Below, in pieces: positions 30,729 through 46,607 of a stretch of DNA of 64,000 nucleotides. Origin of the DNA: Prorocentrum cordatum (lineage: Eukaryota > Sar > Dinophyceae > Prorocentrales > Prorocentraceae); contig CAUYUJ010003016.1 of the NCBI GenBank assembly GCA_963575745.1, positions 19,003-83,002 on the forward strand, in the 5' to 3' direction. Position 1 is the first letter of the stretch, and each line of letters starts with the position of its first letter. The notes beneath the pieces were generated by a model. The model was not told the DNA's origin, did not search any database, and worked only from the letters and a program-made list of their open reading frames with translations. A program made the translations under genes and the position numbers.

Positions 30729-30832
30729 CGGAGGGGGAGGAGACGAGCAGGCACCGCACTTCTACATTATGCGGAAAAACAGTGCTAAGCAGCAGCGGCT
30801 GCCTACAAGGAAAGGGCGCGCGAGTAGCCTCG
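30729..30832 (-). other. 3' untranslated segment; purine run on the wrong strand for a PPT
   Basis: The 104 bp between the RNase H stop and the 3' LTR. The position where a sense polypurine tract is expected reads pyrimidine-rich in sense (purine-rich GGAGGGGGAGGAG on +). No sense-strand PPT is evident. A GCGAG-TAGC-CTCGC hairpin spans the stop codon region at 30820-30833. Confidence 0.55.
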
Positions 30833-31720
30833 CTACCGGCGAGTTTCCTCGCTATTAAAGCGCACCTGCCCGCGGGTTTCCCCGCTAGCTCGGGAGGCAG
30901 GGCCGTCCTGAGACGACCTGCCCGCCCTATACGGTGTATGTTTCTTCAGCTCGTGCTTGAAGGATTGCTGGCCGGCCATTACTTGTAGGAGCAACGCGCG
31001 GTCAATACTACCTTTGGTATGACCATCGGCAGTCATATCCCGCGTGTCACACCATTGAACGCTTTCAACGATTCCGCGCTCCATCATCTGGCGGATCCAG
31101 CTAATGTGCCCAAGCAGAGTACATTCTGTGGGCTTCTTCAGATCTTTGCTAGACAAAGACTTGAAGACAGACTCGGCATCAATAGTCAGAGTGACTTTGA
31201 TACATAGACCACCCATTTCCAATATGTTCTTTAACTGTGTGGGGGTCAATGGTCCCGAGTGTAGCTCGTGGAGCGTTACAATGGTCGGGTAGCAGTCTTC
31301 CAAGTTGTGGGCTGCTGCCAGTGTTTCCGCAGAGTAGCTCGAACGCACCTGCAGTCGATGAGACTTGCAGTATGCGTCCACCAGGTGCACGACGGGTTTC
31401 CCCGCTTGCGTGTGGCCACGCCTCAGCAGGTTAGCCCCGCGGATACCATAGCCTTTGACTTCGTCGTCTTCATCTCCGTTGAGACGACGATAGCCAGAAT
31501 CGCTATGCAGGTCGACTTCTCCTGTTGGGGTCATAGCTTGATACACGATCTTCTTCGGACCTGCCTGTAGTTTTCTGGTAACCGCGTTTAGTCGTCGTAC
31601 CTGGATGTTTGTCGGTTCCTGGATACGTTGTAGTGAGACAACATAGACCATCAACCATACCTGCGTGATCAACGCATAGGCTAGAGCGCCACGAAGACTG
31701 ACGAACATATCAGAAATCGT
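30833..31720 (-). CDS. Copia RT thumb/connection and RNase H segment (after in-frame UAG)
   Basis: Continues the RT frame directly after the UAG at 31721-31723. The first residues match the copia RT connection (LRGALAYALI, then a leucine-rich run). RNase H residues can be placed: D70 in HSDSGY (counting from the Met at 31708), Glu in YSAET, Asp in TIDAES, and the final Asp in MTADGHTKG, the copia D-x-L-T-K signature with one change. It degrades the RNA strand during cDNA synthesis. The tail holds two hairpin repeats. It can only be made by readthrough or internal initiation, or is lost in this copy. Confidence 0.75.
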   Translation of the reverse strand, partial: TISDMFVSLRGALAYALITQVWLMVYVVSLQRIQEPTNIQVRRLNAVTRKLQAGPKKIVYQAMTPTGEVDLHSDSGYRRLNGDEDDEVKGYGIRGANLLRRGHTQAGKPVVHLVDAYCKSHRLQVRSSYSAETLAAAHNLEDCYPTIVTLHELHSGPLTPTQLKNILEMGGLCIKVTLTIDAESVFKSLSSKDLKKPTECTLLGHISWIRQMMERGIVESVQWCDTRDMTADGHTKGSIDRALLLQVMAGQQSFKHELKKHTPYRAGRSSQDGPASRASGETRGQVRFNSEETRR

Positions 31721-31723
31721 CTA
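31718..31723 (-). promoter_or_regulatory. In-frame UAG between RT and RNase H
   Basis: TAG at 31723-31721 is followed in the same frame by ACG ATT TCT and then the RT connection domain without a break. It is either a nonsense mutation in this copy or a readthrough codon. The position inside a domain boundary normally fused in copia elements favours mutation. Confidence 0.6.
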
Positions 31724-32476
31724 TGTCGCTTTGCTCTCAGGATCAGCTCCTGTAAGTTCTGGATGTGTGATAGGACGAAGCTGTTTGATGTATTCGTCCT
31801 GATCAAGAGTGACGCTCCCATCATCGGTCTTGTTATACCGAACGGCACAATTTGTGTATGTGTGCTTGTTCAGTTTGCACTTCCCAAACGTATCTTCAAC
31901 ACACTTGACATACTTGTCAATAGCCTCTTCCTTCCCAGTCATATTGATGTCATCAACGTGCTTGGCTGTCAAGAGGTTTGGGCTCATCTCGAACTCTTCG
32001 TCGTATGAAGTAGGCTGTAGCCCAAAGCTCCTAGTGATGGACCTGAGCTTCAGCGAGAATGCCCTGGGAGCATCCTTCGTGCCCGTCCCCGGCTTCAGAC
32101 ACCGAAGACAATGCTTTGATTCGTCATATGACTCAAAGCCTGGCAGCGTGCGAAGGACAGCTGCTGACCCAGGTGGTAGTGCGAAGCACACCACGCGCTC
32201 TTTCTCGCCCGTTGCCGCGGCGAGCTCGCCATAGGTCAGTCCCTTCAAGAAAGCCATGTTGATGTCCAGGGAAGCGATGATCCAAGCTTTGTTGCATGCG
32301 GCAGAACTTGCGAGCAGTCTCTGGCTTGACCTCCTTGCCGTGCCAGAGAAGGTTTCGACATCAAAGGCTTCAAGGTCCATAAAGCCACGGAGTACCAAGC
32401 GCAACCTGATCGTCCTTTCCATTTCGCCCTTTTCGTTCTTGACAAACTTCCATTTGTATACGTAGCGTGACGTCAT
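31721..32476 (-). CDS. Copia reverse transcriptase palm segment
   Basis: Starts at an ATG overlapping the integrase-frame stop as ATGA. SRYVYKWKFV and RLRLVLRGF match the RVT_2 start, SLDINMAFLKG holds motif A (D71), GTKDAPRAF is the motif B region, and KHVDDIN (D175, D176) is motif C with His for the usual Tyr. The fingers' first part lies in the upstream frame, so the domain is split by a -1 frame change. Reaction: RNA- and DNA-templated cDNA synthesis. Confidence 0.85.
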   Translation of the reverse strand: MTSRYVYKWKFVKNEKGEMERTIRLRLVLRGFMDLEAFDVETFSGTARRSSQRLLASSAACNKAWIIASLDINMAFLKGLTYGELAAATGEKERVVCFALPPGSAAVLRTLPGFESYDESKHCLRCLKPGTGTKDAPRAFSLKLRSITRSFGLQPTSYDEEFEMSPNLLTAKHVDDINMTGKEEAIDKYVKCVEDTFGKCKLNKHTYTNCAVRYNKTDDGSVTLDQDEYIKQLRPITHPELTGADPESKAT

Positions 32477-32490
32477 GATGTTAGACGCTT
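32473..32490 (-). promoter_or_regulatory. Integrase/RT frame junction (ATGA overlap inside the RT domain)
   Basis: The upstream frame ends TCA-TGA and the RT frame begins ATG within it, a -1 change. The upstream frame already encodes the RT N-terminus (YTELKTWLDNKCF), so the junction cuts a domain. A one-base deletion between about 32480 and 32500, programmed shifting, or stop-coupled reinitiation are all possible. Confidence 0.6.
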
Positions 32491-35400
32491 GCTCAAGTCA
32501 GTCATCTGGAAGCATTTGTTGTCAAGCCAAGTCTTCAATTCTGTGTAAAGGGCTTTGGAAACTTTGACCGGATTTGCTTGGATGTCGGCCTTCGTGAGTA
32601 GATCGTCTTCCTTGACGACCACGGCACGTTTGGAAGCAGCACTAACGTATACTCGCATAGTTGTGACGCTGCTGTCATCCAACAATCGGTGTTGCTGCTC
32701 GGACAGGACGACTTTGGACATGTCTGCTGTGAAGCAGAGCTCGATGTACTTCCCGTGCTCATCGGAGTCCAGATCATATTTACTGTCCGGATCCGTGGAG
32801 CATAAGGGAACGTAGTAAGAAGTGTCCATGTCGTATCCTGGCGGGTGACCCCGCTCCGGCAAGTGGCCTTGCACATCTTCACAGGTCGTAGAGACTAACA
32901 CACACTGTGTGTCTGTCATGTATGTGGGAACTGTATGCATGACTTCCTCTGTGTCAGCTTCAAGGAGTGTTCTGTCATCCATCAGTTCAGCATACCACGA
33001 CTTCAAGACAAAAGCATCCAGATCTTCTTCTGTTTCCTCTATGATGGTCGGGAGCCGACCATCGTTATCCGTAGGAGGCTCCTCAGGAGCAGCTGCTGGA
33101 GGTGACTCGCTTGGTGGTGGACCATCAGCGAGTTCCTCAAACTTAGTGAGGTCTCGGTCAAATCCAGCAGACGACTTCCTGGATTTAAGACACTGGATGA
33201 TGCGTGAGTGTGTAGATCCTGTGATGTCATAGATGTTCAAGGCAGTGCCATCAGCTTCATAGTAATGAAAACCAGGGGTCACATCATTATCATAGTGCAC
33301 TAGTGTACAGCTGTCTGCATAGGGTGCAGCAGGCAACTTCGTCAGGCTCTTGGCAAGTCGTACAGCAACAACGTTTTCAATACGAAAGTAGTTGCGTATG
33401 AGGTACTGAAGAGCCAAGTGCACCTTAGGCGAAAGTCGGCTCGCAGCAGTCATCTGCAGCCGACCCTGTTTCGCTGGTAGATATCCGAAAGTCATGGCGG
33501 GTTTCCCCGCTGGCAGACCGGCAATAAAGGCCAATACTGTCCGAAGGGCCGTATTGTCCGATCCTATCTCGCGGACCATAAGTGCTTCGATGTACAGCGT
33601 GTGTCGTGTGTCAGGATACTGTACTCGCACCTCGCGACTGCCGACCTTCACGATGACCTGGCCTCGGTCAGGTTCGTTGCGGATGACCGGGTATGGACCA
33701 CTCCATCCACCCCAGTCGTCTTTCGTGGTGGTCGGGCGATGATAGTCCACGAGATCTCCCTCTTTGTAGTGAAATTCACCCGTAGCAGTAGTCTTCGTAC
33801 GGAGAGCCCTGTTCGTCTTGGCAACCGCAGTGGCCTGCGTGATTGCCTCCAGACTAACCCTCCTGATTGTTTCCTCCCTTGAGTGATCTGATGATTCAGC
33901 GGACTGATCATGATCCAAGACAGGGAAATCGGGAAGCATAGCTGGTTGTCTGCCATACAGCGCATTGTACGGAGACACTTCATTGTAGAAGGTAAATGCG
34001 TTGCTGGCAAACAAGGCTTCATGTAAGAGACGAGTGAAATTGAGAGGAATATTTAATCTATTCAATTCTTCTCCCATCACGTGTAAGAGGTGTCGCAGGA
34101 TGCCGTTCCTAGCTTCGATAGTTGTGGCGTGTTGGCCACGCGCTCGGATACGAAGCTCTGTTCCCTTAGCCTTAAGGATGGCCTTTGCTGTATCATTATT
34201 CAGTGCTCCTTCCCCATCGGAGTATAAGATTTTAGCAGGGCCATGTTGCATCCAAGTCGTATGATAGGCATCGAGAACAGTATGCATGGCTTTATCAGGA
34301 ATCTCTGTGCCAGCTGCCCAGCGAATACAACGGTCGATGATGTGAAAAACAATATGTTCCTGTTTGTAAAAGAAAAGATCACATTCGACTTCCTCGTTGA
34401 AACGTCCTGGCAGTGACACAGAAGGCATCACCGTGTTGCCTGGTTTGTCCCAGGCTCGACATTCTCTACACGAGTCACAAATGCCTTTGATCAGACTCAA
34501 ACGGGTTTCACCCAGACCAACCTTGGTTAGAATCATCCGCATTTTTGGCTCCTTGGCATGAAACCATCTCAAGTGGAGTTTGCGGAGTTCTCGCTGCACT
34601 ACAGCTGGGTCGAAGCTGCGCAGGTTTTGGAGGCTGAGCTGAACGTCGAAGCGAGTCCAATCAGGGAGCCTTGGCCTTGGCCTCGGCTCTGCTTGAGGCT
34701 GCGGCGGTGGTGGAGGATCTCCTCCCTCCATGCGTCCGCGCCTTGCTGCAACTTGTGGCAGTCTACGGTGATCGTCAGAGCTGCCAGCGCCAGTGTTGCC
34801 ACCATTAGCCCCTTCGGCTCTGGTGATGTCATGGCTGCTGGCGCCTGCGGTTGGATCGCCCTCACCAGGCCGTGGCGGCCTAGGCGCGCGTATGCGCGCT
34901 CTCGCGGCCGGCGCCGCTTTTGCGGCTGGCGCCGCTTCTGCGGCTGGAGCCGCTTCCGCGGCTGGCGCCGCAGGAGCGGCTTGCCCCGCCGGGCGCGGCT
35001 GGCCAAAGTTATCTGGCAGCTTCCATTTTTCGGCGAATCTGCATTGGCCAGATATCTTGGTGTGGTGAGGATTGCTCTTCTGATATTCCTTCTTACAGCT
35101 TGGACAGTCCCAGTAATACGGTTCAACATCATACCACCGACACATCTTCGGATCCCTGCTGTGCTTTGGTGATTGCTTGTAGTTGTTGTCCACACAGCCA
35201 GGGCACCCAAGACCGCCAGGTGGTGGTCGCCAGATTTCTCCGTTTGGGTGTCTCCGGATTGTTGGGTCGTCCAAGTCGTAGCCAGCACTGTTTGTTACGA
35301 ACGCATAGCTGCGTTCACGATTCGCGAATGGATCGCGACCGTAAGCAAACAGGTCTTTGGCGATTTGCACCGCATCAACGATCAGTGACTGCATTCTGTA

Positions 35401-37431
35401 GGTATACTGTGCCGCCCTTGCTAGTTCTTTGTTACAAGCATTGGCGTGCACATGATTACCTGGACAACGCTTGCCTCTGAAAGGTGCCAACAACTCTTCT
35501 TTGTTTGCCATCATCTGTGTTGGCTTGCGGATGTATTGTCCAAATGAATCTTTGAGACCAGTCGTGCACTGATCAATAATCGTTTGGCAAGTGACCTTGC
35601 GTTGTGCCAGTTCCTTCCATGGCTGGATCTCATCCACCCACGTGCCCATTGGTTGTTCCCTGAGAAAGAAACGTCTTAGGTCGTCTTGTAATAGAGCGAC
35701 TGTTCCACAGAACGTGATGTGAGGCAGGTCCTCTTTGTGGTGTTTAAGCCACGTATCATGATTGACCTGTGCATTGAAATAGGAAGGAAGTCCAGTAGTT
35801 CTGCAGCTTGGCTGCAGAATCGTGATCTTGACAAAGCAAGTCTTGAGGTAGTGGAGGACTGCTCTTTGTACTTCCGAGTTTCCAAGGTCAACCATAGATA
35901 TCTTGTCAAGGTTCCCGCCTGACGAGAGTCCCCTCTTGAAGGCTAATATGGATATACCACCCTTGCCCCCACATAATTCAAGCATGTCCACTTGATTGTT
36001 TCTGCCGTAGCATAATGACTGGACCATCGAGAAGACATCAGCATGTGAGTCAGCGGGTTGCCCCGCCGGTAACATCATGAAGATGTCCTCTGATTCGCTG
36101 TCCGAGTCCGAGTCGTCAAGAGGAACGTCGTTGAAATATGTGGAGCAGTCAAGCCCTTTGAGGTCCTCTCCACAGTCGTCGTTACCGTCTTCCACTTTCT
36201 TCGGGACTTTCTTCGGTTTGATGCCGGCCTCTTTGTCAGCTTTCTGCTTTTCTTTCTGTTTTATCCTGGCATCAGTGGGCAACGCAGTTTCCGCGGAGAG
36301 ATCCGCTGCGGAGGAATCCACTGTTAAGTCAGGAAATGGCGGAATTTCAGGAAGGTTGTTGGTGGGTCGCGTTTGGCAACGCTCAATCGAAGGGGGAGGA
36401 GATCGATCGTCGTCGACGATCGTCACACGCTTTGGGCGTGGCCTTCGCGACTCACCGTCGCCATGAAGAACTGGAGCCGGAGGCTCCCAGTATAGCCGAG
36501 TACTGATGTTTGTAACCCCATCAGGTAATGGAGCTACATAATTGTACCCAGTTGGCTGATCCTGAATTCTAATATCTTGAACGATCTTATTCGTGTCCAG
36601 GTCGGTCGTGACTCTACGAACAACATGGTCCCATTGAGGGCCCTTTTGTGGACATTGGACGTAGTGTCTGACCTTTTTGTCAACGCGAGTACACACGCTG
36701 AGGTGTACCGCACTCCGCTCATTCCTGATCATGTTGGCTTTATCGAGTTGATCAAGGAAGCGTGCAATAATGATAGCCAAAGTTTTATACCGAAACTCGG
36801 CACGTTGCTGATCTTGGCCATACCAATCCAAATCATGCTCCTTGTGTGAGCCACAAGTACATTTCCATAAGTTTATCGGTATATGAGGACAAGATGTAGC
36901 AACTTGTATATAAGAACCACTGGGATATTTACTGGATCGGTCAAACTTGATACCGAAATGACAGAGTCTCATTCGTATAATGCTTAGCTTCAAATCTTCG
37001 ATAACATCTTTGATCGGACCCTGTTTCCAGAAATACCCGGGTGGCCCCAGGATAACTATCTGCATTCTCAGAGCACGCGCTTTGATCAGGAGATTTTGTA
37101 TACGTTGATAATGTGGTCCCGCCCTCTTTCCTGGAGTACGAACGTACCAATCAGAGGGTGTGGCCACCCACAACATATTGTAGTCTCCTGCCAACAAATT
37201 TCCCAAATACTGTGTTCCAGTTGAAGTCATTACCTCATTATGGGTAATCCGGTCGCATATATATCCACGGGTTCGGAGTTCAGCGCAAGCTGTGCGAATA
37301 TCTTCGATGACAAGACATTTTGAATGATATTTTTCCTCTCGGGCCTCAGCGCGGCCAACGTATGTCGCGAGGAGGCCGGTATTCGGCTTCTCTTCGCAAG
37401 CGAGCGCCGCCGGCGCGCCCGCCTGCCCCCG
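32473..37431 (-). CDS. Copia methyltransferase-like region, integrase and RT N-terminus
   Basis: The frame continues from the codon after UGA 37432-37434; its first Met is at 37230 (residue 1 here). Residues ~417-424 (ELCGGKGG) resemble SAM motif I; LQPSCRTTG (~472) sits where PPC would be; IRKPTQMMAN (~565) matches the K-P-T signature of dinoflagellate retroelement methyltransferase-like domains. Integrase: HHCC region (~880-935) with CDSCREC, then D951, D1005 and E1039 (DD33E), and a C-terminal domain with WSGPYPV. It ends with the first part of RT. Two linkers carry hairpin repeats encoding Ala-rich text. It inserts cDNA with 5-bp staggered cuts. Confidence 0.8.
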   Translation of the reverse strand, partial: RGQAGAPAALACEEKPNTGLLATYVGRAEAREEKYHSKCLVIEDIRTACAELRTRGYICDRITHNEVMTSTGTQYLGNLLAGDYNMLWVATPSDWYVRTPGKRAGPHYQRIQNLLIKARALRMQIVILGPPGYFWKQGPIKDVIEDLKLSIIRMRLCHFGIKFDRSSKYPSGSYIQVATSCPHIPINLWKCTCGSHKEHDLDWYGQDQQRAEFRYKTLAIIIARFLDQLDKANMIRNERSAVHLSVCTRVDKKVRHYVQCPQKGPQWDHVVRRVTTDLDTNKIVQDIRIQDQPTGYNYVAPLPDGVTNISTRLYWEPPAPVLHGDGESRRPRPKRVTIVDDDRSPPPSIERCQTRPTNNLPEIPPFPDLTVDSSAADLSAETALPTDARIKQKEKQKADKEAGIKPKKVPKKVEDGNDDCGEDLKGLDCSTYFNDVPLDDSDSDSESEDIFMMLPAGQPADSHADVFSMVQSLCYGRNNQVDMLELCGGKGGISILAFKRGLSSGGNLDKISMVDLGNSEVQRAVLHYLKTCFVKITILQPSCRTTGLPSYFNAQVNHDTWLKHHKEDLPHITFCGTVALLQDDLRRFFLREQPMGTWVDEIQPWKELAQRKVTCQTIIDQCTTGLKDSFGQYIRKPTQMMANKEELLAPFRGKRCPGNHVHANACNKELARAAQYTYRMQSLIVDAVQIAKDLFAYGRDPFANRERSYAFVTNSAGYDLDDPTIRRHPNGEIWRPPPGGLGCPGCVDNNYKQSPKHSRDPKMCRWYDVEPYYWDCPSCKKEYQKSNPHHTKISGQCRFAEKWKLPDNFGQPRPAGQAAPAAPAAEAAPAAEAAPAAKAAPAARARIRAPRPPRPGEGDPTAGASSHDITRAEGANGGNTGAGSSDDHRRLPQVAARRGRMEGGDPPPPPQPQAEPRPRPRLPDWTRFDVQLSLQNLRSFDPAVVQRELRKLHLRWFHAKEPKMRMILTKVGLGETRLSLIKGICDSCRECRAWDKPGNTVMPSVSLPGRFNEEVECDLFFYKQEHIVFHIIDRCIRWAAGTEIPDKAMHTVLDAYHTTWMQHGPAKILYSDGEGALNNDTAKAILKAKGTELRIRARGQHATTIEARNGILRHLLHVMGEELNRLNIPLNFTRLLHEALFASNAFTFYNEVSPYNALYGRQPAMLPDFPVLDHDQSAESSDHSREETIRRVSLEAITQATAVAKTNRALRTKTTATGEFHYKEGDLVDYHRPTTTKDDWGGWSGPYPVIRNEPDRGQVIVKVGSREVRVQYPDTRHTLYIEALMVREIGSDNTALRTVLAFIAGLPAGKPAMTFGYLPAKQGRLQMTAASRLSPKVHLALQYLIRNYFRIENVVAVRLAKSLTKLPAAPYADSCTLVHYDNDVTPGFHYYEADGTALNIYDITGSTHSRIIQCLKSRKSSAGFDRDLTKFEELADGPPPSESPPAAAPEEPPTDNDGRLPTIIEETEEDLDAFVLKSWYAELMDDRTLLEADTEEVMHTVPTYMTDTQCVLVSTTCEDVQGHLPERGHPPGYDMDTSYYVPLCSTDPDSKYDLDSDEHGKYIELCFTADMSKVVLSEQQHRLLDDSSVTTMRVYVSAASKRAVVVKEDDLLTKADIQANPVKVSKALYTELKTWLDNKCFQMTDLSKRLTS
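34904..34971. repeat. Hairpin array, four units at exact 18-nt period
   Basis: GCGGC-CGGC-GCCGC, GCGGC-TGGC-GCCGC, GCGGC-TGGA-GCCGC and GCGGC-TGGC-GCCGC at 34904, 34922, 34940 and 34958. A decayed fifth (GCGGC-TTGC-CCCGC) lies at 34977. They encode an Ala/Pro linker between the methyltransferase-like region and integrase. Confidence 0.9.
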
Positions 37432-37434: not shown

Positions 37435-40209
37435 GCGGCGGTCGTGTGACCACGTTGCCGTCTGACTCGGGGGCATGCTGTTAGCGGATGGCTCCGCAGG
37501 AGTCGCTGGTGCGGCTACGCTCACGATCTCCACGCGGGTTGGCCCCGCAGAGTCCGACGAGCCTCCGCCCGTGTAGCTTGGTGGTGGTGGCGGTGTCGCG
37601 GGTGGCCCCGCTTGGTTCTCAGGCGTCCATTTATTCACCGCCTCCTGGACTGCCCAGAATATCTTAGACTTCAGGGCATCCTTCATATGTGGCCAGGTCC
37701 CCTCGGGACACTGTTGGCCCTCCCACCAGCTGTTCAGCGTCCTGTCCACGATCAAACGGGTCGTGTCTTCCAGGAGCTGCTTGTCGAGATACGGCTCGAC
37801 AATGTACGTATCAGTCGTGACGGTCATGGACTGTCCCGTCGCGGGTTGCCCCGCTGTGGTCTCGGCGGGTGGCCCCGCACTTACTCCGGCGGGTGGCCCC
37901 GCACTGACGGGGTCCTCTTCGTTCTCCGTCTCGGTGTAGCCATCTCGACTGCTGCGGATTGTGAAGGTGTTCGTGACCGTCTGGCTTTTAGCCCCGTCAT
38001 ACAAACCGCAGGGAATCGCGAGATGTCCCGAGGGAGTTTTCTTCGCCCTCAGGACCTTGGCACCCCTTCCCAGCTTCAGGGTGTAGTCACCGCTGGGGAA
38101 GATAACCTTCTGGTAGCCTGGCTTCAGCACGATGATCGTGTCACGTGCTTCCATGGCTCCTAGGCCCCAGATGGCCGGGAGATTGGCACCCGAGCCTTCT
38201 GCGATGTTGGAGGCATACTCCTCGATACGGGGGCTTGCCTCATTGGCGTATTGCACCCCGATCTTGAAGTTGCCCATCTTCCGACATATCGCAGCACCCT
38301 CACCGACACCGTTGATGTAGAGGGTCTTGCTCAGGGTGCATATGGCAGGTCTGTGATTGTACCTGGCCATAATCTCCTGGAAGGTTCGCGCCGTATTGGC
38401 TCCAATGATGTTCACGTTGGAGCCAATGTCTAGCATGAACGAGATGCAGGGCATACCGTCTTCGTCAGGAAAGAATGTCCCATTTCGCGCTGCCAGAGCC
38501 ATTGTACCATGGTCATCGGTGTGGTACGTAATCTGTGAACCGAGTGTGCCTTTCAACAGGCGTTGTTCAAGCACCCATTGACTCATGGTTAACTCGGTGC
38601 ACCACATCTGCTCATATTGGCGGCGCTCCTCCACGGTAATTGGTTCCTGTTCGAGAACCCAATAATTCGCAGAGAGTGTGGACATCCATTCACCTCCTGG
38701 CGGCAGCGTGTCCGTGTCGTCACGTGCATAGGTCAGCCCCTCTGTATCGATCATGAATGTGGTGTGGAACTGGGCTGCCTCCGCGCTCTCAGCGCTTGCC
38801 CGGCTCCTAGCGCTGACCGGGCTTGCCACACGTGAGGTCCTGGATGATCCAGTTGGCCTTCGAGTCCCGCCTCCGCTCCTGCCACTCCGCCTGATGTTGG
38901 CCTCCATTGCCCTCAGGAAACCTGGATTTGGAGGCCCATTTGCGGGTGGCCCCGCTTTGGCGGCGGGAGCCGCTTCAGCGGGTGGCCCCGCAGCTGGGGG
39001 CTCCTGTGCTCGAAGCGTAGGCAGGATTGGCATCTGGATGCCTTGCTCTGGCGCTGGCCAGGGGTATGCCTGTGCAGCTGGGGCACGTGCGGATGGCTCC
39101 GCCGATTGTGCGGCTCGAGCCTCTAGTGCCTCCACTGCTTCCCGTAGCCGACGCATTTCCCGGGCATCTGCCACGTACCTCTCCTGCTGGCGCGCTTGTT
39201 CTGACTCAGCGTCGCGCTGTCCAGCATATGGGAAATGTGCTATAACTATGCCCGGCCCACGACATACAGCGCAGGGGGCCTCGTTCGGCGCACCTGGCCG
39301 CTGATTGCGGACGTGCTGCTGTGCAACACGATCCCAGCATATATCGTGGAAGAAGTGCCCACACGCCAGTCTCCACACTATGGTGCCCATCTCGTAGGTG
39401 TCCATACAGATTGGGCACTGTGTGAAGTTGTAGTCTGAAATAACTGGAGCAGGCACGTCTGGGCGAGTCCGAGCTTGGCGCTCGAAAGTGGTTTCGCCCT
39501 CCCGATATGGCGTCGGTGGCGGTCGTCTATCTGTCCGTTCAGCGGGTGGCCCCGCGTCTGCGGGTGTCCCCGCTTGGGTCTCACGCTCGATCCTTCTCTG
39601 GATCGCGCGTTGTTGGCGCAGCCTGGCGTTGTCCCGAGCCTGCTGCCTAGATGCCAGTATCGCTTGCTGCGTGTTGTGCACGTCGCGGATGTAGTCTGGC
39701 ATGCTGCCCATAGCGGCTGGCACCGCGAGACCAGCTGGCTGAACTACGGTCTCGGGGTCCGTCGGCGTGGGCATGTAGGCGTAGTGCGGCATAGACTGCG
39801 CATCGACCGCTCGTGTAAACTGCAAACGAAACATCTCATTGGCAAGATTCCGAGTGTATTCGTTCGCAGGTGGCCCCGCAATCATAGGAGTGTTATTCAT
39901 CTGCGCGTAGTACTCCGGGTACATCGGCGCGTCCATGGCCTGTGCCTCTGCTGGTCCATGATTGTCCCATCCATATATTGGGTGTGATGCTATTCCTGGA
40001 ATAAACACCTGTCGATATGGATTCGTGGGATCAGCATTTGGAGCATCTTCAGAAGTCCAGCTCCAGAGAGGCCGAAAGTCGCCATGATTCGTAACATCTA
40101 TGTTGCGGTTCCGCAACAGGCTGGGCACTCTATCAGCTTGTTGCTGCAGAAAGGTAGCCTGTGCTCTTAAGTTGGCTGCCCGACGTTCATAGTCTGACCT
40201 TGCTGTCCG
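37432..40209 (-). CDS. Copia RING-H2 finger and aspartic protease ORF
   Basis: Open from 40209 in the -1 frame relative to Gag; the only early start is GTG at 40128 (residue 1). A complete RING-H2 is visible: C238, C241, C256, H258, H261, C264, C286, C289. RING-H2 proteins usually act as ubiquitin E3 ligases. D567-I-G-S in FMLDIGSNVNIIG is the retropepsin active site with Ile for Thr/Ser, followed by a downstream beta-rich region to ~750. Coiled-coil Arg/Gln text precedes the RING. Many AGPPA-type hexapeptides mark hairpin repeats. Protease cleaves the polyproteins; the RING's role is unknown. Confidence 0.75.
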   Translation of the reverse strand, partial: RTARSDYERRAANLRAQATFLQQQADRVPSLLRNRNIDVTNHGDFRPLWSWTSEDAPNADPTNPYRQVFIPGIASHPIYGWDNHGPAEAQAMDAPMYPEYYAQMNNTPMIAGPPANEYTRNLANEMFRLQFTRAVDAQSMPHYAYMPTPTDPETVVQPAGLAVPAAMGSMPDYIRDVHNTQQAILASRQQARDNARLRQQRAIQRRIERETQAGTPADAGPPAERTDRRPPPTPYREGETTFERQARTRPDVPAPVISDYNFTQCPICMDTYEMGTIVWRLACGHFFHDICWDRVAQQHVRNQRPGAPNEAPCAVCRGPGIVIAHFPYAGQRDAESEQARQQERYVADAREMRRLREAVEALEARAAQSAEPSARAPAAQAYPWPAPEQGIQMPILPTLRAQEPPAAGPPAEAAPAAKAGPPANGPPNPGFLRAMEANIRRSGRSGGGTRRPTGSSRTSRVASPVSARSRASAESAEAAQFHTTFMIDTEGLTYARDDTDTLPPGGEWMSTLSANYWVLEQEPITVEERRQYEQMWCTELTMSQWVLEQRLLKGTLGSQITYHTDDHGTMALAARNGTFFPDEDGMPCISFMLDIGSNVNIIGANTARTFQEIMARYNHRPAICTLSKTLYINGVGEGAAICRKMGNFKIGVQYANEASPRIEEYASNIAEGSGANLPAIWGLGAMEARDTIIVLKPGYQKVIFPSGDYTLKLGRGAKVLRAKKTPSGHLAIPCGLYDGAKSQTVTNTFTIRSSRDGYTETENEEDPVSAGPPAGVSAGPPAETTAGQPATGQSMTVTTDTYIVEPYLDKQLLEDTTRLIVDRTLNSWWEGQQCPEGTWPHMKDALKSKIFWAVQEAVNKWTPENQAGPPATPPPPPSYTGGGSSDSAGPTRVEIVSVAAPATPAEPSANSMPPSQTATWSHDRR
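38942..38991. repeat. Hairpin array, three units at 18-nt period
   Basis: GCGGG-TGGC-CCCGC, GCGGC-GGGA-GCCGC, GCGGG-TGGC-CCCGC. The middle unit changes both sides of stem position 5 together. Confidence 0.9.
40167..40209 (-). promoter_or_regulatory. Gag/protease -1 overlap
   Basis: The protease frame opens after a TGA at 40210-40212 and Gag ends at TAA 40167-40169, leaving a 43-nt overlap in the -1 frame. The overlapped text in the new frame (SDYERRAANL) is coding-like and continues into a Gln-rich helix. No canonical slippery heptamer is visible. It may be a programmed shift or an indel. Confidence 0.5.
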
Positions 40210-43200
40210 TCAGCGGGTGGCCCCGCGTGTGCGGGTGACTCCGCAGGCGTTCGCTCGGCGGGTGTCCCCGCAGCCACTCCTCCTTCACTACCCCTCGGAG
40301 TGCCAAAGGGAGTGGTCGCCTGGAGTGCTGCTGCGAGCGCCGGATTCCCGCGAATCGCCTGGAGTCTTTGCCACAAGCTGTTCTCGCTCGTTTCAGACGG
40401 CGGAGTCCGAAACGGCGAGCCACCATCTGAACCGCCCATAGGGACAAACCTCGCACCTCCAGCTTGCTGCGGAGGGCGTTGTGGTTGTGGTCCTAGGACG
40501 CCTGGTGGCCCCGCAGGAGTGCGCAGGTTCCTCTGCTGTGCGTCTTGGATACCTGTATGCACTGCCCACGGGTCAGCACGATATAGCTGATCGGTCAGTC
40601 CAGAGACGTCGGCTGGTGTCAAATAGCTGTTGAGGGCCTGGACCCATGTCTGCTGGTCCGGCCTCAAAGGAGATGCTACCGTTGCTACTGGTGTGACCAC
40701 TTGTTGCCATGAACCGTCCGAGGTGTCTACCGCGGGTGTCCCCGCACCTGCGGGTGGCCCCGCTTCAGGCATGACCTCGTCCTCCTGGGCATTCATCATG
40801 AGGACTGTCTGTGTGTCGTACGGTCGTGGAGCAACATCTTGCTCGGTCATGACCAAATTGAATGGGCGACCGTCCGTCTTAGTCCAGCCCTTTAGGTACA
40901 TGGCGTGATCTTCCATTACACCCAGAGTTCTGTCACACATTTTAAGTGGCAGGTAGTCATCGGTGCGAATCCTGTCCGCGGGTTGGCCCCGCCTCCGCGA
41001 CTTGTCATAAGCCAGCGGATTGCTCCAGGCTTCGCCGACCCGATATTTCGCAATGCTCACAATCTGGAGGATATGATCGGGCGGTATACGTCCGTCGTGG
41101 CCCCGTGTCATGACTATGTCATTTGCTGATCTCCATAGGGAGAAGCCACTGGACAGCATCTTGTTGATGCTGCAGAATATGAGCACCTCCGAGTCAGGAC
41201 GGATGCCCGATTGAATCCTCGGGTCGCCCGGGAGGTAGGGGCAGCCGTGCACAAATTGGCGCCCCCCCTTCCTTTTAGGGTTGTCCTGTGCGAGGCATGA
41301 AAGGCCATTAGCAAGGATGTCCTTGACATACTCCCACTGTGTCCCGTGGATGAAATATACTGGGTCGTCTGGTTCTTTCATCCATGTTGTGATCGGCTTA
41401 TAAAGCGACTCGGGACAGTGGATGCCTGGACTGCTGTGGCCGTTCGTGGCTCTGATGAAGTACTGTGGCCTGCGTGCCTTTGGTCGAAACCTGGGAGGCA
41501 GCAGCATGCTGTCCTCAACGCACTTCATCTGGAGCCTGCCCTTCTGCATGCCGTGATGGTCAATCATCTCACAGCAGTTTAGCAGCACCCAATACACGTA
41601 TGACGTGTGGGGCCTGCCCTTGATCAGCACCTCGTGCATTTCACGATAGCCTTTCCACTGATCATTTTCAGTCCAGTTTGTCAGCAGATCGTCAACAACA
41701 ACCCAGCCATCGTATGGATCGAAAGTGCTGATCTTTTCGAAGTGTCGGCTGAATCCGTCCTTCCAATATGGACTATGGCGTAGGGCTGTAGAGAACCATA
41801 TTGACACCTTGGTCATTTGCCCTTCGCGCGGCAAAGTCGGATCCATGCCGAACCTCTCCATGACCTTCAGGAGCTCTGCTTTATGCTGCGCAACGCGTAG
41901 TGGCGGCCTGTCTCGCAACATATTTCCCACGGTTTGTTGTTCACGTTCCCAGTCGTTGCGGCACTCGAAGTTACGACGATCAGGGCAATTAATGACCTCG
42001 TATCGGTCCGTATCGTCTCGAGTGACTCGTGGGTTTATGGTGCGCTTCGGGCCTTTGCCTTCAATGCCTTGCCAGTATTCGATGGCTCCCAGAGGGATGT
42101 TCCTAAGAACAGACATTACTGGCTGCCCGCGCGCGGGTGGCCCCGCTAATGCAGCTGGCGGCGCTTTAACGGGTGGCCCAGCAGAGCCTGCGGCTGACGA
42201 GGCAGCTCCAGCGGATGACTCCGCGCCAGGGTTCGGGTGACCTTGGTCAGCAACTGCATCATCGGTTAGTTTCTGTCGGTCGCCAAATTCTTTGAGGACT
42301 CTGAAGCGTTCTTCTCTTGAGAGAGTGCCTTCTGCGGGTGTCCCCGCTGCTGCAGCTGGCGCCGCTTTAGCGGGTGGCCCCGCAGAGCCCTTGTCCTCCT
42401 TAGCCTTGGCGGCCGCTTCTGCCCGCACCGACCTCATCCCAGCTTCGGGCTTCGGCTGTGCTTTCATTCGTGCCGAACCTGGTCGTGGTGCAAGGCGCGG
42501 CTGATGCAGAGTTGGAGTCCAGTCACCTCGGAAGGCTGCCTTAGGCTGATTGCGAGCTTCATCCTTGACATCGCCTTGGGTCGCCGGTGGCATCGGGGTC
42601 GATGGTCCAGCAAAAGCCTTCCTCCTCTCCGTCACGGACAGACCGGGAGGATCTACCGGCTCAGGGTCGTCCGTCTTGGCGATCCCTCTGGCCTTCGCCC
42701 GCCCCTGTGTGCCTTCGGGGCTCTTGGACGGGTGCCTTTTCGCAGGAGTCGGTGAAGACGAGGAGTCGGCTTCAGGTCTTGGAGGTGGTCTGCTGCCCTT
42801 GCCCGGTTGTGGACCAGGAGGGTCTCTAGGAGGGCCTTCTGGCTGGCCATGATCATGGATGACCTGCCTCATCTGGTCGATGTCGGCAGTGCCTTTTATG
42901 GCCAGCTTGTACTTGCCATTTTCATGGCGGTGAATTACCCTCGTGCAAAACCACTTCTGCGCCGAAGAGCTGTAGTACCAGCAGGCGCATCCATCAGGGA
43001 ATGGATTCTCTGAGCCGTCTTCCGCCGCCCATTCTTCATTCAGTTCGGTGTGGTCAGTGCCGGCGGCGGACCCAGCAGCAGATGCAACAGCTATCCAATC
43101 GTCGTCCGCGGACCCAGCGGCTGGCGCCGCGTCTGCGGGTGACCCCGCTTCTTTGCTGGATCCTGCGGGTGACCCCGCCTCTTTATGGAATCGGCGGTTC

Positions 43201-46200
43201 CATTCCTTGAGGCGATGGTCATTGGGAAGCTGTACCCAATTTTCCCTGACGATGTTGGCCACCTCTTCGGTCATAGGGACGCGATCGGCTTCGGTGATGC
43301 GCTTTCCTCCTCCAGGGACCTCCTTGTTAGGATCATGGACGTTGCCAGCGTCATCTCCATGAGACCAATTCCACGGGGTCTCACCGTGATGAGGACTCCT
43401 GGAGGGGCGGTCCATCGGACAACTGCGCATGTGACCTTTGAAGGGCTCGCACTGACATACTTGTTTCCTGTATGTCTTGCGATCGTTGATGATCTCCTGT
43501 TTCTTAGCCCTTTTGTCCCAAGCCTCTGGCGTTTTGGTCTTGCCACCCTTGGTACGTATTATCACGCCAGTTTCGTCCCTTTTGGTGCAGTACTCCTTAG
43601 AGTACCAGTGGCGGATCACGTCCATCGAATAGCCGGGGTACCAGTTGATGTACCAATCCGGCACATGCTGAGCGGATACTCCAACGGAGTGCTCAGTACT
43701 GTATGGATAGCCCGATGCATCATGTGTAGGGCGTCTGGGAGCTGAACGGCTCCTCCTGCGGGCTGGCCCCGCTGACGCACTACCACGTTCCATTGGCCTT
43801 TGATCGTCATGCTCTGAGTCTCGGGGAGGCGACGGTCGTCTGTCCCTCTTGGCGTAGCGCATGTCCTCCGAGTCCTCTGAGCTGTCCTGGACCATGAACA
43901 CGTGTTGATACGGGCTTCGGAAGTACCCGATGTCGTTTAACTGCTCCATCGTGAGGTCGTTAAGGTCTATTTGATCACAACCTTGCATAAATACATCCAT
44001 AGACCAAGCGGGTGGCCCCGCTGTTGCGGCTGGCGTCACTTCGGCGGGTGACCCCGCTAGAGCCTGGAGTGCTGTCAGCATCTGAGGTGCCGACATGTCC
44101 GAATCCAGGTATGGACGCAGCCGTGCAGCCCCTGGGCGCGACAGCAGGTCGTTCATGGTTATCTGCTGATGTGCTGGCGCACTCAGGAGTCGGATTGCTT
44201 CAGCGACCTGCTCTTGGAGCATGTCCTTATAGTCATCTTCCGCCTCTTCGGAGTCAGAGTACGCGGGATGGCCCCGCATTTCGTCATCAGCGTCTCCCGC
44301 CTCCGAACCAGCTCGCGAAAGGTCTGGCAGCAACGGCGTGCCAATCACCTGCGGTGCCAGCGCGGCGGTGAGCTCTTCCTCGGTCGCCGGGACGGTCTCA
44401 GCTTCGGAGACCTCGTCGCCGGCGGGTGGCCCCGCTGGAAGACCGAACCAAGCATTGAACGCGACCTCGTCGACCTCGTCCCAGCCGTGGAACTCGTCGA
44501 AGAGGGTCACTGCGTAGTCTTCCAGGGCTACGGTTGCTTCAGCGTAGCGGGCCATCACGTAATACGTGGAGGAGCCCGCAGCGGGAGCCGCTTCTGGATT
44601 GACGTAAAACTCGTAGTCAATGTAGTCTATGTCATCCATAAAAGAATTTTGAGCCAAATGCACGGATCCCTTTCCTTTCCCCTTCGGGCATTGATCGCGC
44701 AAATGCTCTGTGCTACCGCATGTATGACACTTCATAGTATTGCCAGAAGCGTCCCTAGGGTTGCCCCTCCGCCCTTTTCCCTTACCGGAGGTCCGCCTGT
44801 GACCCCGACCTTTGCCTCCGATAAGAACTTCTTCAAAGGCTATATCAGTTAAGGACGTGAGGAAAGCAGTAATACCCCTACCATGCATACGGCGTCTGCG
44901 ACCCCCTTTGCCACGACCCTTTCCATATCGTTTGAAATGTCGGCGTACTGCACGTCTCACTTTTCTGACTGGTTTCTTCATAAAGCGCCTCCAACGGCGT
45001 TTTGATTTGCGATAGGCCATAAAAGCGGCTTCCGCTCTTTGTTGTTCAGAAAGGTGAGTGTCATCCGCTGGATAGTCATTACCAGCAGAGACTATGCCAT
45101 TGTGCTCATCGTCAGATGAGGTGTCTGTGTCAGTGCCAGATTCAAACGGTGAGGGTGGCTGAGACCCTTGAGCGGATGACTCCGCTTGGCCCCAGAGGGT
45201 TGTGCCCGAGGGCGGGCTTGCAGTGTAGGCGGCGCCTGGCGAGTAGTTCGACCAGGCGTTCGCCTCAGCTGCCTCTGCCGATGCCTGGCCAGTCTGCCCT
45301 AAAAGGGCAGTGGCCTCGTTGGGCATATCGGCTGGGTCAGCCCAAGGATTTGGCTCGCCAGGACCAGCGGGTGACCCCGCAGTCGTGGCGTAGACACCTG
45401 CATGCGAGTGGTGCCCTGTGAAGATACCCGCTATGTTGCCAGGAGAGCGCTCGGCGACATGTCCGTAGTTCCTCATCCTGGTCAGCAGCCTGTCATAGTC
45501 TGCTTGTGTTCGGGGCATCTGATGATTAAAGGGCTCCAGCAGGTGTTGGGCTCGTGACGCGCCAACGCCTAACGCTCTGAAGAGAATCAGCGTTAGGATC
45601 TGAAAGTTGGGGATGACAAATCCAACAGAGTTAGCCTCGTCACGGGCCATCTCGAACCGAGCTAACACTGAGTCGATTCGCTCGCCCCTTTCGACGCGAA
45701 AGTCGATAAGGGCAGTGCCAGAGTTGAGCTGGCGCTCATCTTCCAGATTTTCAAATTTGGTGCTCAGTAAGTACAGTATATATGTTACTGCATCCGTTGG
45801 CTGTCCATTGACAGTTACACCATAATTGATGATCTGGGAGGGGACCTGCATGGCGATACGACGAGCAAGACCTTGAAGGCCTCGTTGTAGTGCTGCAGCT
45901 TGTTGTGGTGGTGTCATATTGCCGCTCGTTACGTTTAACCATGCATGTACTTCGCGAACATATTCGCGAAAAGGCGTAGTACCGGCAGGGTCCCATGAAG
46001 GGCCAGTAGTACGCGTGTCGTCCATCCCCTGCCGCATGTATCCCACAGCACATCCCATTATTACCCACAGAATGCCGAAGATAGTTATCTTAATCCAGTG
46101 CATGTGCATTTCGGCTTCGGTGATTGGTTTAGGCTGTGGTTTGTCAGGCTCTGGCGTAGTAGCCGTGAGGCGCCTGACTGGCACGGGATGCAGGTGGCCC

Positions 46201-46607
46201 CGCTGCGGGTAGCCCCGCAGGGTGACCACGTTCTCGATCGAGTTGCCGATTGGCATCTGGTGGAAGTCGGGAGTGAAGTGGCGCAGTGAAGTAGGAGAGA
46301 GCGTCTCGAGTTCGCGGGTTGCCCCGCTAGCTCGATCGCGGACTGGCTCCGCTCCTCGCAGAGCCGGCGCAACATGGTATTCCACCGTAGTAGTAGTCCA
46401 CCAAGTTGTGCCGTGGATTACAGGAATCAGAGCGAGAGCCAGCCACACGAGAGTGTAGCCAGCTCCGCTACCAAGTCGAAAACAAGCTGGTAAGCTTAGG
46501 TATGTGTTACGCTTTAAGCGTTGCCATATCCCAGGCTTTGGCTCATATCGCATGAGCAAGAGAGCAAGACGAAGCATGGGATCTGGAGTAAAGGATAGGA
46601 TGGGCAT
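40167..46607 (-). CDS. Giant Gag polyprotein with zinc knuckle and Tpt1-like domain
   Basis: About 2,146 codons from ATG 46607, which lies inside the 5' LTR (numbering below uses the TTG at 46613 as residue 1). Two hydrophobic segments (~52-67 and ~172-193) bracket a soluble loop. A capsid-like helical region (~205-420) starts after a TTPFREYV stretch. A basic Arg/Lys tract precedes a perfect zinc knuckle C629-x2-C632-x4-H637-x4-C642. Acidic and Pro/Ala-rich linkers full of hairpin repeats follow. A Tpt1/KptA-like domain occupies ~1605-1865. The tail is low complexity. Gag packages RNA into particles; the membrane segments and Tpt1 domain are not standard parts. Confidence 0.8.
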   Translation of the reverse strand: MPILSFTPDPMLRLALLLMRYEPKPGIWQRLKRNTYLSLPACFRLGSGAGYTLVWLALALIPVIHGTTWWTTTTVEYHVAPALRGAEPVRDRASGATRELETLSPTSLRHFTPDFHQMPIGNSIENVVTLRGYPQRGHLHPVPVRRLTATTPEPDKPQPKPITEAEMHMHWIKITIFGILWVIMGCAVGYMRQGMDDTRTTGPSWDPAGTTPFREYVREVHAWLNVTSGNMTPPQQAAALQRGLQGLARRIAMQVPSQIINYGVTVNGQPTDAVTYILYLLSTKFENLEDERQLNSGTALIDFRVERGERIDSVLARFEMARDEANSVGFVIPNFQILTLILFRALGVGASRAQHLLEPFNHQMPRTQADYDRLLTRMRNYGHVAERSPGNIAGIFTGHHSHAGVYATTAGSPAGPGEPNPWADPADMPNEATALLGQTGQASAEAAEANAWSNYSPGAAYTASPPSGTTLWGQAESSAQGSQPPSPFESGTDTDTSSDDEHNGIVSAGNDYPADDTHLSEQQRAEAAFMAYRKSKRRWRRFMKKPVRKVRRAVRRHFKRYGKGRGKGGRRRRMHGRGITAFLTSLTDIAFEEVLIGGKGRGHRRTSGKGKGRRGNPRDASGNTMKCHTCGSTEHLRDQCPKGKGKGSVHLAQNSFMDDIDYIDYEFYVNPEAAPAAGSSTYYVMARYAEATVALEDYAVTLFDEFHGWDEVDEVAFNAWFGLPAGPPAGDEVSEAETVPATEEELTAALAPQVIGTPLLPDLSRAGSEAGDADDEMRGHPAYSDSEEAEDDYKDMLQEQVAEAIRLLSAPAHQQITMNDLLSRPGAARLRPYLDSDMSAPQMLTALQALAGSPAEVTPAATAGPPAWSMDVFMQGCDQIDLNDLTMEQLNDIGYFRSPYQHVFMVQDSSEDSEDMRYAKRDRRPSPPRDSEHDDQRPMERGSASAGPARRRSRSAPRRPTHDASGYPYSTEHSVGVSAQHVPDWYINWYPGYSMDVIRHWYSKEYCTKRDETGVIIRTKGGKTKTPEAWDKRAKKQEIINDRKTYRKQVCQCEPFKGHMRSCPMDRPSRSPHHGETPWNWSHGDDAGNVHDPNKEVPGGGKRITEADRVPMTEEVANIVRENWVQLPNDHRLKEWNRRFHKEAGSPAGSSKEAGSPADAAPAAGSADDDWIAVASAAGSAAGTDHTELNEEWAAEDGSENPFPDGCACWYYSSSAQKWFCTRVIHRHENGKYKLAIKGTADIDQMRQVIHDHGQPEGPPRDPPGPQPGKGSRPPPRPEADSSSSPTPAKRHPSKSPEGTQGRAKARGIAKTDDPEPVDPPGLSVTERRKAFAGPSTPMPPATQGDVKDEARNQPKAAFRGDWTPTLHQPRLAPRPGSARMKAQPKPEAGMRSVRAEAAAKAKEDKGSAGPPAKAAPAAAAGTPAEGTLSREERFRVLKEFGDRQKLTDDAVADQGHPNPGAESSAGAASSAAGSAGPPVKAPPAALAGPPARGQPVMSVLRNIPLGAIEYWQGIEGKGPKRTINPRVTRDDTDRYEVINCPDRRNFECRNDWEREQQTVGNMLRDRPPLRVAQHKAELLKVMERFGMDPTLPREGQMTKVSIWFSTALRHSPYWKDGFSRHFEKISTFDPYDGWVVVDDLLTNWTENDQWKGYREMHEVLIKGRPHTSYVYWVLLNCCEMIDHHGMQKGRLQMKCVEDSMLLPPRFRPKARRPQYFIRATNGHSSPGIHCPESLYKPITTWMKEPDDPVYFIHGTQWEYVKDILANGLSCLAQDNPKRKGGRQFVHGCPYLPGDPRIQSGIRPDSEVLIFCSINKMLSSGFSLWRSANDIVMTRGHDGRIPPDHILQIVSIAKYRVGEAWSNPLAYDKSRRRGQPADRIRTDDYLPLKMCDRTLGVMEDHAMYLKGWTKTDGRPFNLVMTEQDVAPRPYDTQTVLMMNAQEDEVMPEAGPPAGAGTPAVDTSDGSWQQVVTPVATVASPLRPDQQTWVQALNSYLTPADVSGLTDQLYRADPWAVHTGIQDAQQRNLRTPAGPPGVLGPQPQRPPQQAGGARFVPMGGSDGGSPFRTPPSETSENSLWQRLQAIRGNPALAAALQATTPFGTPRGSEGGVAAGTPAERTPAESPAHAGPPADGQQGQTMNVGQPT
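41020..41801 (-). other. Tpt1/KptA-like RNA 2'-phosphotransferase domain within Gag
   Basis: R1612-H1613 (STALRHSP), R1721 (FIRATNGHSS), H1756-G-T (YFIHGTQW) and R1805 (SGIRPDSEV) match the Arg-His-Arg-Arg active-site set and the IRA-x-x-GHS and HGT motifs of Tpt1. They are followed by LIFCSINKMLSSGF, RSANDIVMTRG and G-x-IPP, as in the family C-lobe. Tpt1 uses NAD+ to remove internal 2'-phosphates left at tRNA splice junctions, and some members ADP-ribosylate RNA or DNA ends. The gap between R1613 and R1721 is larger than usual, implying an insertion. All signature residues being kept suggests selection for activity (inference). Confidence 0.8.
42133..42182. repeat. Hairpin array with decayed members
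   Basis: An intact unit at 42133 is followed at +18 and +36 by GCAGC-TGGC-GGCGC and ACGGG-TGGC-CCAGC, which have lost pairing. It shows the 18-nt phasing outliving the sequence. A similar triplet is at 42334, 42352 (decayed) and 42370. Confidence 0.8.
43117..43178. repeat. Hairpin array, three units
   Basis: Units at 43117 (GCGGC-TGGC-GCCGC), 43135 and 43165 (both GCGGG-TGAC-CCCGC). Spacing 18 and 30 nt. They lie in a Ser/Asp/Ala-rich Gag linker. Confidence 0.85.
44687..44731 (-). other. CCHC zinc knuckle of Gag
   Basis: C629, C632, H637, C642 in exact C-x2-C-x4-H-x4-C spacing, preceded by Arg/Gly/Lys-rich text (44740-45000). This is the nucleocapsid RNA-binding signature of retroviral and copia Gag. 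Confidence 0.9.
46459..46473 (-). other. Primer binding site of copia element
   Basis: Directly inside the 5' LTR the sense strand reads TGGTAGCGGAGCTGG. TGG pairs with a tRNA CCA end, and TGGTA-x-C-x-GAGC resembles PBSs that pair with initiator Met tRNA. The match to a dinoflagellate tRNA cannot be checked here. Confidence 0.65.

Follow-up and report, generated by a model that had tools for sequence, protein, structure and literature searches.

Why should the coding sequence of a mobile element be filled with dozens of copies of one hairpin only 14 nt long? The question is raised by a stretch of 64,000 nt from the dinoflagellate Prorocentrum cordatum (assembly GCA_963575745.1, contig CAUYUJ010003016.1, positions 19,003 to 83,002 of the forward strand; the whole stretch is called the window below), in which positions 30437-46759, read on the minus strand, constitute a 16.3-kb Ty1/copia-type long terminal repeat (LTR) retrotransposon. 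An earlier note on this DNA had described about 45 hairpins in the element, and had argued that a repeat in the protein is insufficient to account for them, with self-propagating mini-palindromes, RNA packaging or structure elements and protein-binding sites as possible roles. That argument held, and an element that acts as RNA or spreads by itself is required; the note left open what the hairpins are, and the evidence presented here favors a structure of the sense RNA.

The hairpins are real, and chance, codon usage and a protein repeat do not explain them. With a hairpin defined as a perfect 5-bp stem closing a 4-nt loop, and with the minus strand taken as the sense strand of the element, we counted 88 hairpins in the element, where any other loop length between 2 and 10 gave 15-36, and no peak at loop length 4 was observed in the flanks (62 hairpins in the left 30.4 kb and 18 in the right 17.2 kb). 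On the sense strand, 46 of the 88 showed a loop of the form GNNA, and 38 of these stood on a GCG stem, the commonest unit being GCGGG-GCCA-CCCGC. Counted with any loop, there were 44 perfect GCG-stem copies, in agreement with the number in the earlier note, which had recognized the palindromes, written as the antisense strand, and had not mentioned the GNNA loop of the sense strand. Within the loops of the 38 copies, the first inner base was C in 24, T in 7 and A in 7, the second was C in 30, A in 6 and T in 2, and G occurred at neither position. Sites of the frame GCG-N8-CGC were fully palindromic in 44 of 54 cases in the element, compared with 3 of 52 in the other 47.7 kb of the window. Both strands of these 47.7 kb, which are partly richer in GC than the element, held 11 GNNA hairpins, of which just one stood on a GCG stem; the equal density in GC-rich DNA that would have spoken for composition was not observed within the window.

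The excess is also independent of codon choice. When all residues and the codon pool of the five stop-to-stop frames spanning the element were kept and synonymous codons were permuted, the 45 GNNA hairpins lying inside open reading frames (ORFs) fell to 2.1 (sd 1.5, maximum 8, 300 shuffles), and the 37 with a GCG stem fell to 0.2 (maximum 3). Codon or composition bias was therefore rejected as their source, in line with the GCG-N8-CGC counts outside the element. A known RNA family was likewise rejected, since Rfam covariance models gave no match up to E 1 in 30400-46800. The reading phases of the 46 hairpins were 31, 7 and 7, with one copy not fully within an ORF, and the off-phase copies spell SGETR, RGYP or RGHP yet keep the GNNA loop. 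Moreover, eight GNNA hairpins had stems outside the GCG family, compared with 1.97 expected (none of 1000 shuffles reached 8; maximum 7), one of the eight (34949-34962) being a by-product of a tandem array.

Covariation is evident in the inner pairs of the stem. For 42 sites picked only by the outer GCG/CGC and the loop G..A, stem pair 5 was G:C in 30, A:T in 4, C:G in 3, T:A in 2 and mispaired in 3; it was thus Watson-Crick in 39 of 42, whereas 5000 permutations gave 23.9 on average and never more than 33. At pair 4, 41 of 42 sites were Watson-Crick against a mean of 33.7, which is weaker evidence because at least one of the 5000 permutations also reached 41. The claim that both arms change together is borne out accordingly. 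Peptides selected without regard to DNA led to the same structure: when AGxPA sites were chosen by their amino acids only, the DNA was a perfect palindrome in 23 out of 26, and in the 24 of the form AG[P/S/T/Q/K]PA (AGAPA and AGLPA left out) the four wobble bases matched GCG-GGG-NNA-CCC in 95 of 96 cases, whereas the overall use of Ala, Gly and Pro codons is mixed. Synonymous bases that are fixed while replacement bases vary are the reverse of what selection on protein produces. In two of six aligned pairs of paralogous segments, every stem difference is the complete exchange of a base pair, namely 39575/43150, with one complete swap and one loop base changed across 36 nt, and 34973/38993, with two complete swaps and four changes in loop or linker. 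Imperfect members were also examined. Six that retain 8 or more of the 10 consensus stem bases have just one defect, which is G.U in the sense RNA in four cases (46203, 39879, 39726 and 31405) and is not in two (40244 and 34989); two further members carried two defects (42182 and 40514).

The two strands are not equivalent. Hairpins with both GCG stem and GNNA loop numbered 38 in the sense and 2 in the antisense orientation, a bias that disfavors a strand-neutral DNA palindrome. In ViennaRNA, the commonest unit folded at -9.3 kcal/mol in the sense and -7.8 kcal/mol in the antisense RNA, and in 134-nt antisense context the hairpin was dominant at 19 of 46 sites. Together with a hairpin-like motif in relatives, the sense GNNA loop and the near-uniform orientation point to a structure of the sense RNA.

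We compared the element with 25 Pol relatives (38-67% identity; sources ena 20, jgi 4 and lgn 1), which we take to be metagenomic and 19 of which were aligned piecewise to it; the comparison covers proteins. AGxPA, present 26 times in the element, was found in 4 of the 25 (three times in P0010 and once each in P0001, P0018 and P0020), and relatives of the second frame, ORF2, carried it twice (P0027) and once (P0028). Ten of the 25 Pol relatives repeated a different motif, HG[ND]V, which occurred 23 times in 10 of 27 relatives compared with 0.6 in 60 local shuffles, some sites being counted more than once as the proteins are related. Its codons CAC-GGN-RAC-GTG can spell the hairpin CACG-GNRA-CGTG. 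In variable regions, the residues X and Y of XG[ND]Y were compatible with reverse-complementary codons at 28 of 70 sites, against 15.3 expected (maximum 27 of 3000), and other XGzY were not enriched (45 of 209 against 40.2). The residue that follows could be encoded by a C-first codon at 16 of the 28 compatible sites, compared with 70 of 213 controls (p 0.019) and 14 of 42 incompatible sites, which fits a fifth stem pair. At the site homologous to hairpin 32841-32854, XG[ND]Y was present in 15 of the 18 relatives shown (first in each row, read by eye), with 10 of the 15 compatible (L/E, H/V, R/T, R/S and T/G) against 4.1 expected, where kinship makes the p of 0.0013 too small. Counts of codable hairpins gave z values of -1.0, -3.6 and 3.9 at phases 0, 1 and 2 in the 27 relatives, an excess at phase 2 only, and of 5.9, 1.6 and 0.1 in the element's own proteins. 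As a separate observation, P0027 and P0028 showed repeated AANAA in linkers (two and three, respectively), perhaps another hairpin class.

By analogy with viral packaging signals, we tentatively propose, at a confidence somewhat short of even, that the sense RNA is under selection to carry a single loop motif in many copies, on stems that can be exchanged, and that the element's own Gag reads them. The 14-nt unit would be an RNA hairpin of the sense transcript, in which a mostly GC stem of 5 bp displays a GNNA tetraloop in about 46 copies. The loop would be the recognized part, on any stable short stem of the genomic RNA, and the stem a mere scaffold, free to drift in sequence as long as pairing is kept. 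Gag would most likely bind the loops through its zinc knuckle, and many weak sites could allow the 16-kb genomic RNA to be selected, compacted and packed into particles. As in packaging signals, stem-loops with a shared loop recur many times along this genome, nearly all of them in ORFs, and within this one element the loop is kept and the stem is exchangeable, as both the covariation and the eight other stems indicate. The proposal is supported by ORF1, the Gag side, because it bears a zinc knuckle, CHTCGSTEHLRDQC, at 44688-44729 (the Pfam score was under the cut-off, and the motif was read directly). A wider version is possible but more doubtful: a lineage of protist copia elements might share a distributed assembly code of Gag-read GNNA/GNRA hairpins, with stem and phase specific to each sub-lineage (GCGGG..CCCGC in the present element, CACG..CGTG in its relatives).

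Several observations weigh against this proposal. Unpaired stem changes were found in three of the six paralogous pairs (42188/42389, 39573/40244 and 38991/44057), and a further pair, 38993/42385, showed one change to G.U. The intended hairpin was dominant at only 24 of 46 sites in 134-nt sense context, with a mean pair probability of 0.54; competing pairings are thus to be expected, in our explanation between neighboring copies. Six of the 44 perfect GCG stems carried loops other than GNNA (TATG, TCCC, TCTC, TCCA, GCCG and CATA). The element also carries frame breaks, so not every present copy need be under selection. In the relatives, a repeat of the peptide itself could underlie HG[ND]V, which was seen in proteins only; without H..V, the compatibility of XG[ND]Y dropped to 13 of 55 against 10.9 (p 0.26). 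When conserved positions were kept, XGTY (z 7.5) scored above XGDY (z 5.7), and XGNY reached only z 0.9; we put the high XGTY score down to conserved peptides because it was at expectation in the variable subset (2 of 11 against 1.8), where XGNY had z 1.7.

The chief rival is that the hairpins are selfish mini-palindromes, multiplied by duplication and by template switching during reverse transcription, with their arms kept perfect by hairpin-templated correction and without function for the element; we consider this rather unlikely. Quasipalindrome correction copies one arm of a hairpin onto the other, and the double G:C to C:G changes are compatible with it. Signs of duplication are plain. 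A tandem array of 18-nt period at 34899-34989 is absent from the relatives that have sequence there, and paralogous segments of 36-56 nt each carry hairpin pairs. When G.U was allowed, 59 GNNA hairpins were counted, seven successive spacings being exactly 18 nt and others 15, 16 or 19; neighbors with different stems (GCAAG at 32872 and GCGGG at 32854) indicate that duplication alone does not account for the spacing. Analogous palindromic repeats throughout Volvox organelle DNA, as described in the portion of the source cited (PMC2670323), also speak for selfish spread. The mechanism alone, however, does not fix G and A at the loop ends, does not predict the single orientation of the off-phase copies, and leaves unexplained both the excess of GNNA hairpins on other stems and the hairpin at 31408-31421, which has no insertion relative to its homologs. 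Common descent of the copies could yield part of the loop and orientation bias. Insertion units with target-site repeats were not seen and were rejected: hairpins flanked by repeats of this kind numbered 0 of 38 (k=4), 2 of 38 (k=3) and 5 of 38 (k=2). The flanks of the hairpins are weakly conserved. The hairpin at 36066 replaces a peptide of the relatives with a gain of about one residue, and those at 31421 and 33510 lie in aligned peptides without insertion. From these patterns we infer that the copies probably arose in part by short segmental and tandem duplication and in part by substitution in place. Selfish spread and RNA selection need not exclude each other, as duplication could supply the copies and selection could keep the loop and the pairing.

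A different role at the RNA level, such as a pause site for reverse transcriptase, regulation of translation or of frameshifting, an effect on RNA stability, or recognition by an RNA enzyme that the element encodes, for instance its KptA/Tpt1 domain, would draw on the same structural evidence as packaging, and ORF1 does contain a KptA/Tpt1 domain; we regard it as improbable, since a local role needs no spread over coding parts of the kind observed (2.4-4.5 GNNA hairpins per kb in four of the five), and nothing ties the KptA/Tpt1 domain to the hairpins. That AGPPA linkers are palindromic in DNA by coincidence is scarcely credible and was rejected: the phase shared by 31 of the 46 copies and the position of several copies in variable linkers are what such a repeat would give, but the synonymous shuffles, the off-phase copies, the near-fixed wobble bases beside varying residues and the covarying inner pairs are not.

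Assignment of the element to the Ty1/copia class is supported by its paired LTRs, a target-site duplication and a match to RVT_2 (E 1.1e-11). The 5' LTR (46474-46759, minus strand, as are all features of the element below) is 286 bp long and 99.65% identical in self-BLAST to its 3' partner (30444-30729). Because the LTRs differ at a single place across 286 bp and ACAGAG stands on the outer side of each (sharing at most 2 bases with the LTR end, which gives a duplication of 4-6 bp), the insertion is young. The sequence TGGTAGCGGAGC directly after the 5' LTR is presumably a primer binding site (PBS) resembling that for initiator tRNA. No GNNA hairpin was found within the LTRs, as had been claimed; each LTR does hold two 5-bp hairpins (46484-46497 and 46616-46629; 30454-30467 and 30586-30599) whose sense loop is TACC, antisense GGTA, which is of the GNNA type in the opposite orientation.

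The open frame of ORF1, the Gag side (40167-46724), enters from the LTR and holds 20 GNNA hairpins in 40167-46473. Its KptA/Tpt1 RNA 2'-phosphotransferase domain lies at about 41100-41711 (PF01885, E 1.5e-15), and the two solved relatives found are tRNA 2'-phosphotransferase 1. ORF2 (37432-40209) has 10 GNNA hairpins in 37432-40166 and contains a protease-like stretch with MLDIGSNVNIIG, which we take to be a protease-like motif; a RING finger (PF13639, PF13923) lies ahead of it at 39259-39420. ORF3 (32473-37431; 12 GNNA hairpins) comprises the N-terminal part of Pol and an integrase-like region, and aligns with the Pol of the relatives. All 25 relatives align with the region upstream of the reverse transcriptase, and PF00665 is present in one of them (P0022); the window frames themselves gave no Pfam match to an integrase. 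ORF3 also includes, at about 35340-36000, a stretch reading DMLELCGGKGG ... QPSCRT ... REQP, which to our eye looks like a C5-methyltransferase fold and had no C5-methyltransferase match in Pfam. On its flanks, the RVT_2 reverse transcriptase piece (31721-32497) has a frame shift and a stop, at which relative P0001 reads through, and no GNNA hairpin lies in its 0.75 kb (31721-32472). The C-terminal Pol piece (30833-31720), on the RNase H side by position and by alignment to relatives, holds 4. The hairpins had been said to avoid the catalytic cores, which is only partly correct: conserved Pol peptides contain three of them (33497-33510, 33826-33839 and 31408-31421).

The individual GNNA hairpins, all on the minus strand, are as follows. 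GCGGG-GCCA-CCCGC occurs at 44422-44435 (encoding AGPPA), 44008-44021, 42370-42383, 42133-42146, 40750-40763, 40213-40226, 39542-39555, 38978-38991, 38942-38955, 37889-37902, 37865-37878 and 37598-37611. GCGGG-GTCA-CCCGC occurs at 45367-45380 (AGSPA), 44044-44057, 43165-43178, 43135-43148 and 32841-32854 (RGHP, phase 2), and GCGGG-GACA-CCCGC at 42334-42347 (AGTPA), 40732-40745, 40258-40271 and 39560-39573. GCGGG-GCAA-CCCGC was found at 46314-46327 (phase 1), 37841-37854 (AGQPA) and 36053-36066 (AGQPA, the copy at which relatives have another, shorter peptide). GCGGG-GCTA-CCCGC stands at 46205-46218 (phase 2), with the imperfect copy GCGGG-GCCA-CCTGC one base downstream (46190-46203), and GCGGG-GAAA-CCCGC at 33497-33510, where AGKPA falls at a conserved peptide and is shared by P0001 and P0018, and at 30872-30885 (SGETR, phase 1).

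Pair 5 is A:T in GCGGA-GTCA-TCCGC at 45172-45185 (AESSA) and 42211-42224 and in GCGGA-GCCA-TCCGC at 39089-39102 (AEPSA) and 37484-37497; it is C:G in GCGGC-GCCA-GCCGC at 43117-43130 (AAPAA), a unit repeated at 34958-34971 and 34922-34935 in the tandem array. The remaining GCG stems are GCGTT-GCCA-AACGC (36369-36382, phase 2), GCGTG-GCCA-CACGC (31408-31421, RGHT, phase 2), next to the imperfect GCGGG-GAAA-CCCGT (31392-31405), GCGAG-GAAA-CTCGC (30839-30852, phase 1) and GCGAG-GCTA-CTCGC (30820-30833), whose first base is the third base of the stop codon of the C-terminal Pol piece, where a hairpin spanning the RNase H stop region had been noted. Stems outside the GCG family are TGAGC-GCCA-GCTCA (45725-45738), GCCAT-GAAA-ATGGC (42915-42928), GGGTG-GCCA-CACCC (37156-37169), GCAAG-GTCA-CTTGC (35587-35600), ACGCA-GCTA-TGCGT (35301-35314, extending to 7 bp), GCCGC-GGAA-GCGGC (34949-34962, between two array units), CGCAG-GCCA-CTGCG (33826-33839, in the conserved peptide ITQATAV) and GCAAG-GCCA-CTTGC (32859-32872, 4 nt ahead of the next hairpin).

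A P. cordatum gene model (P0026), labeled protein-tyrosine-phosphatase by one source, includes exon-like stretches of this retrotransposon, two long ones and a third in part, and matches the element over 126 and 109 residues in separate pieces, at 98% identity. Protein searches with the whole of ORF2 gave no matches, and its protease-like part alone gave 3. Viral contigs, searched with the reverse transcriptase piece, the alignment of relatives and a tandem-hairpin pattern, and genome contigs, searched with the alignment, returned no useful matches. The tandem-hairpin pattern matched 39 prokaryotic records in genome contigs; a rumen metagenome-assembled genome, uncultured Ruminococcus RUG11824, carries tandem GCGGG-TGMC-CCCGC on four contigs (L002, L005, L015 and L017) at spacings of 17-43 nt. 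Elsewhere in the window, GC-rich DNA contains an open frame (1666-10461, plus strand) that is 2931 codons long and had no Pfam match at E 0.001, and arrays of about 73 bp in tandem, together with diverged 75-nt repeats spaced 36-75 nt and mostly bearing GGCGCC-like blocks, lie at 60157-60570 and 29763-30146. The GC content of the window, 59.0%, agrees with the 59.7% that is stated for P. cordatum in the part of a review cited (PMC11453091).

In RNA viruses, packaging signals of the dispersed type are degenerate, and debate about them continues. The closest working analogy to the proposed mechanism would be satellite tobacco necrosis virus (STNV), in which, according to the portion of the report cited, about 30 AXXA stem-loops in 1.2 kb are preferred with indifference to stem sequence and trigger capsid assembly (PMC3593212). 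The excerpts cited also describe the concept of dispersed RNA packaging signals, with the loop motif xxYA in MS2 (PMC6281560), and the motif RGAG in hepatitis B virus (PMC7612645). As in these viruses, the element has many short stem-loops in a coding genome, with a common loop motif and exchangeable stems; unlike them, it is an LTR retrotransposon, its stems are near-identical rather than degenerate, and the binding of a protein to its hairpins is a prediction.

Other systems share single features. The Volvox organelle repeats, in the portion cited, are likewise short hairpins with a recurrent loop (often TAAA/TTTA in V. carteri) multiplied in one genome, and the Allomyces double-hairpin elements are grouped with them there (PMC2670323); those repeats average 50 nt and lie in intergenic and non-ORF intron DNA, whereas the units here are 14 nt long, in the coding sequence of one mobile element and in nearly one orientation. 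The Conserved Hairpin Site of the fungal GalEa elements is also a copia retrotransposon hairpin with a proposed role, described in the passages cited as a single hairpin that directly follows the 5' LTR, replaces the PBS and has a poorly conserved loop (PMC5445492), compared with some 46 hairpins in ORFs, a conserved loop and a PBS-like sequence here. Ty1 belongs to the same type of element, and its Gag prefers structured Ty1 RNA; the recognition site discussed in the part of the source cited is a 5' pseudoknot, and a dispersed hairpin repeat is not met in that part (PMC8396678). Ty1 Gag has no zinc finger, whereas the element has a zinc knuckle. The spreading introns of Amoebophrya, as outlined in the sections cited, provide a case from the dinoflagellate lineage, with short inverted repeats of 8-20 nt that spread like transposable elements, in introns and with direct repeats of 3-5 nt (PMC11453091); here, tight hairpins lie inside ORFs and lack target-site repeats. 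Searches of the literature for dispersed hairpins in LTR elements or in dinoflagellates found no such case among the titles and abstract openings listed.

If the sense-RNA proposal is true, packaging-signal logic would operate in an LTR retrotransposon, with copies that are near-identical, countable and covarying. Since the copies overlap codons in all phases, the effects of loop, stem and protein could be separated by synonymous change. If the copies are selfish instead, this would be a nuclear mobile element whose coding sequence hosts multiplying mini-palindromes, and whose paralogous copies show templated correction at work.

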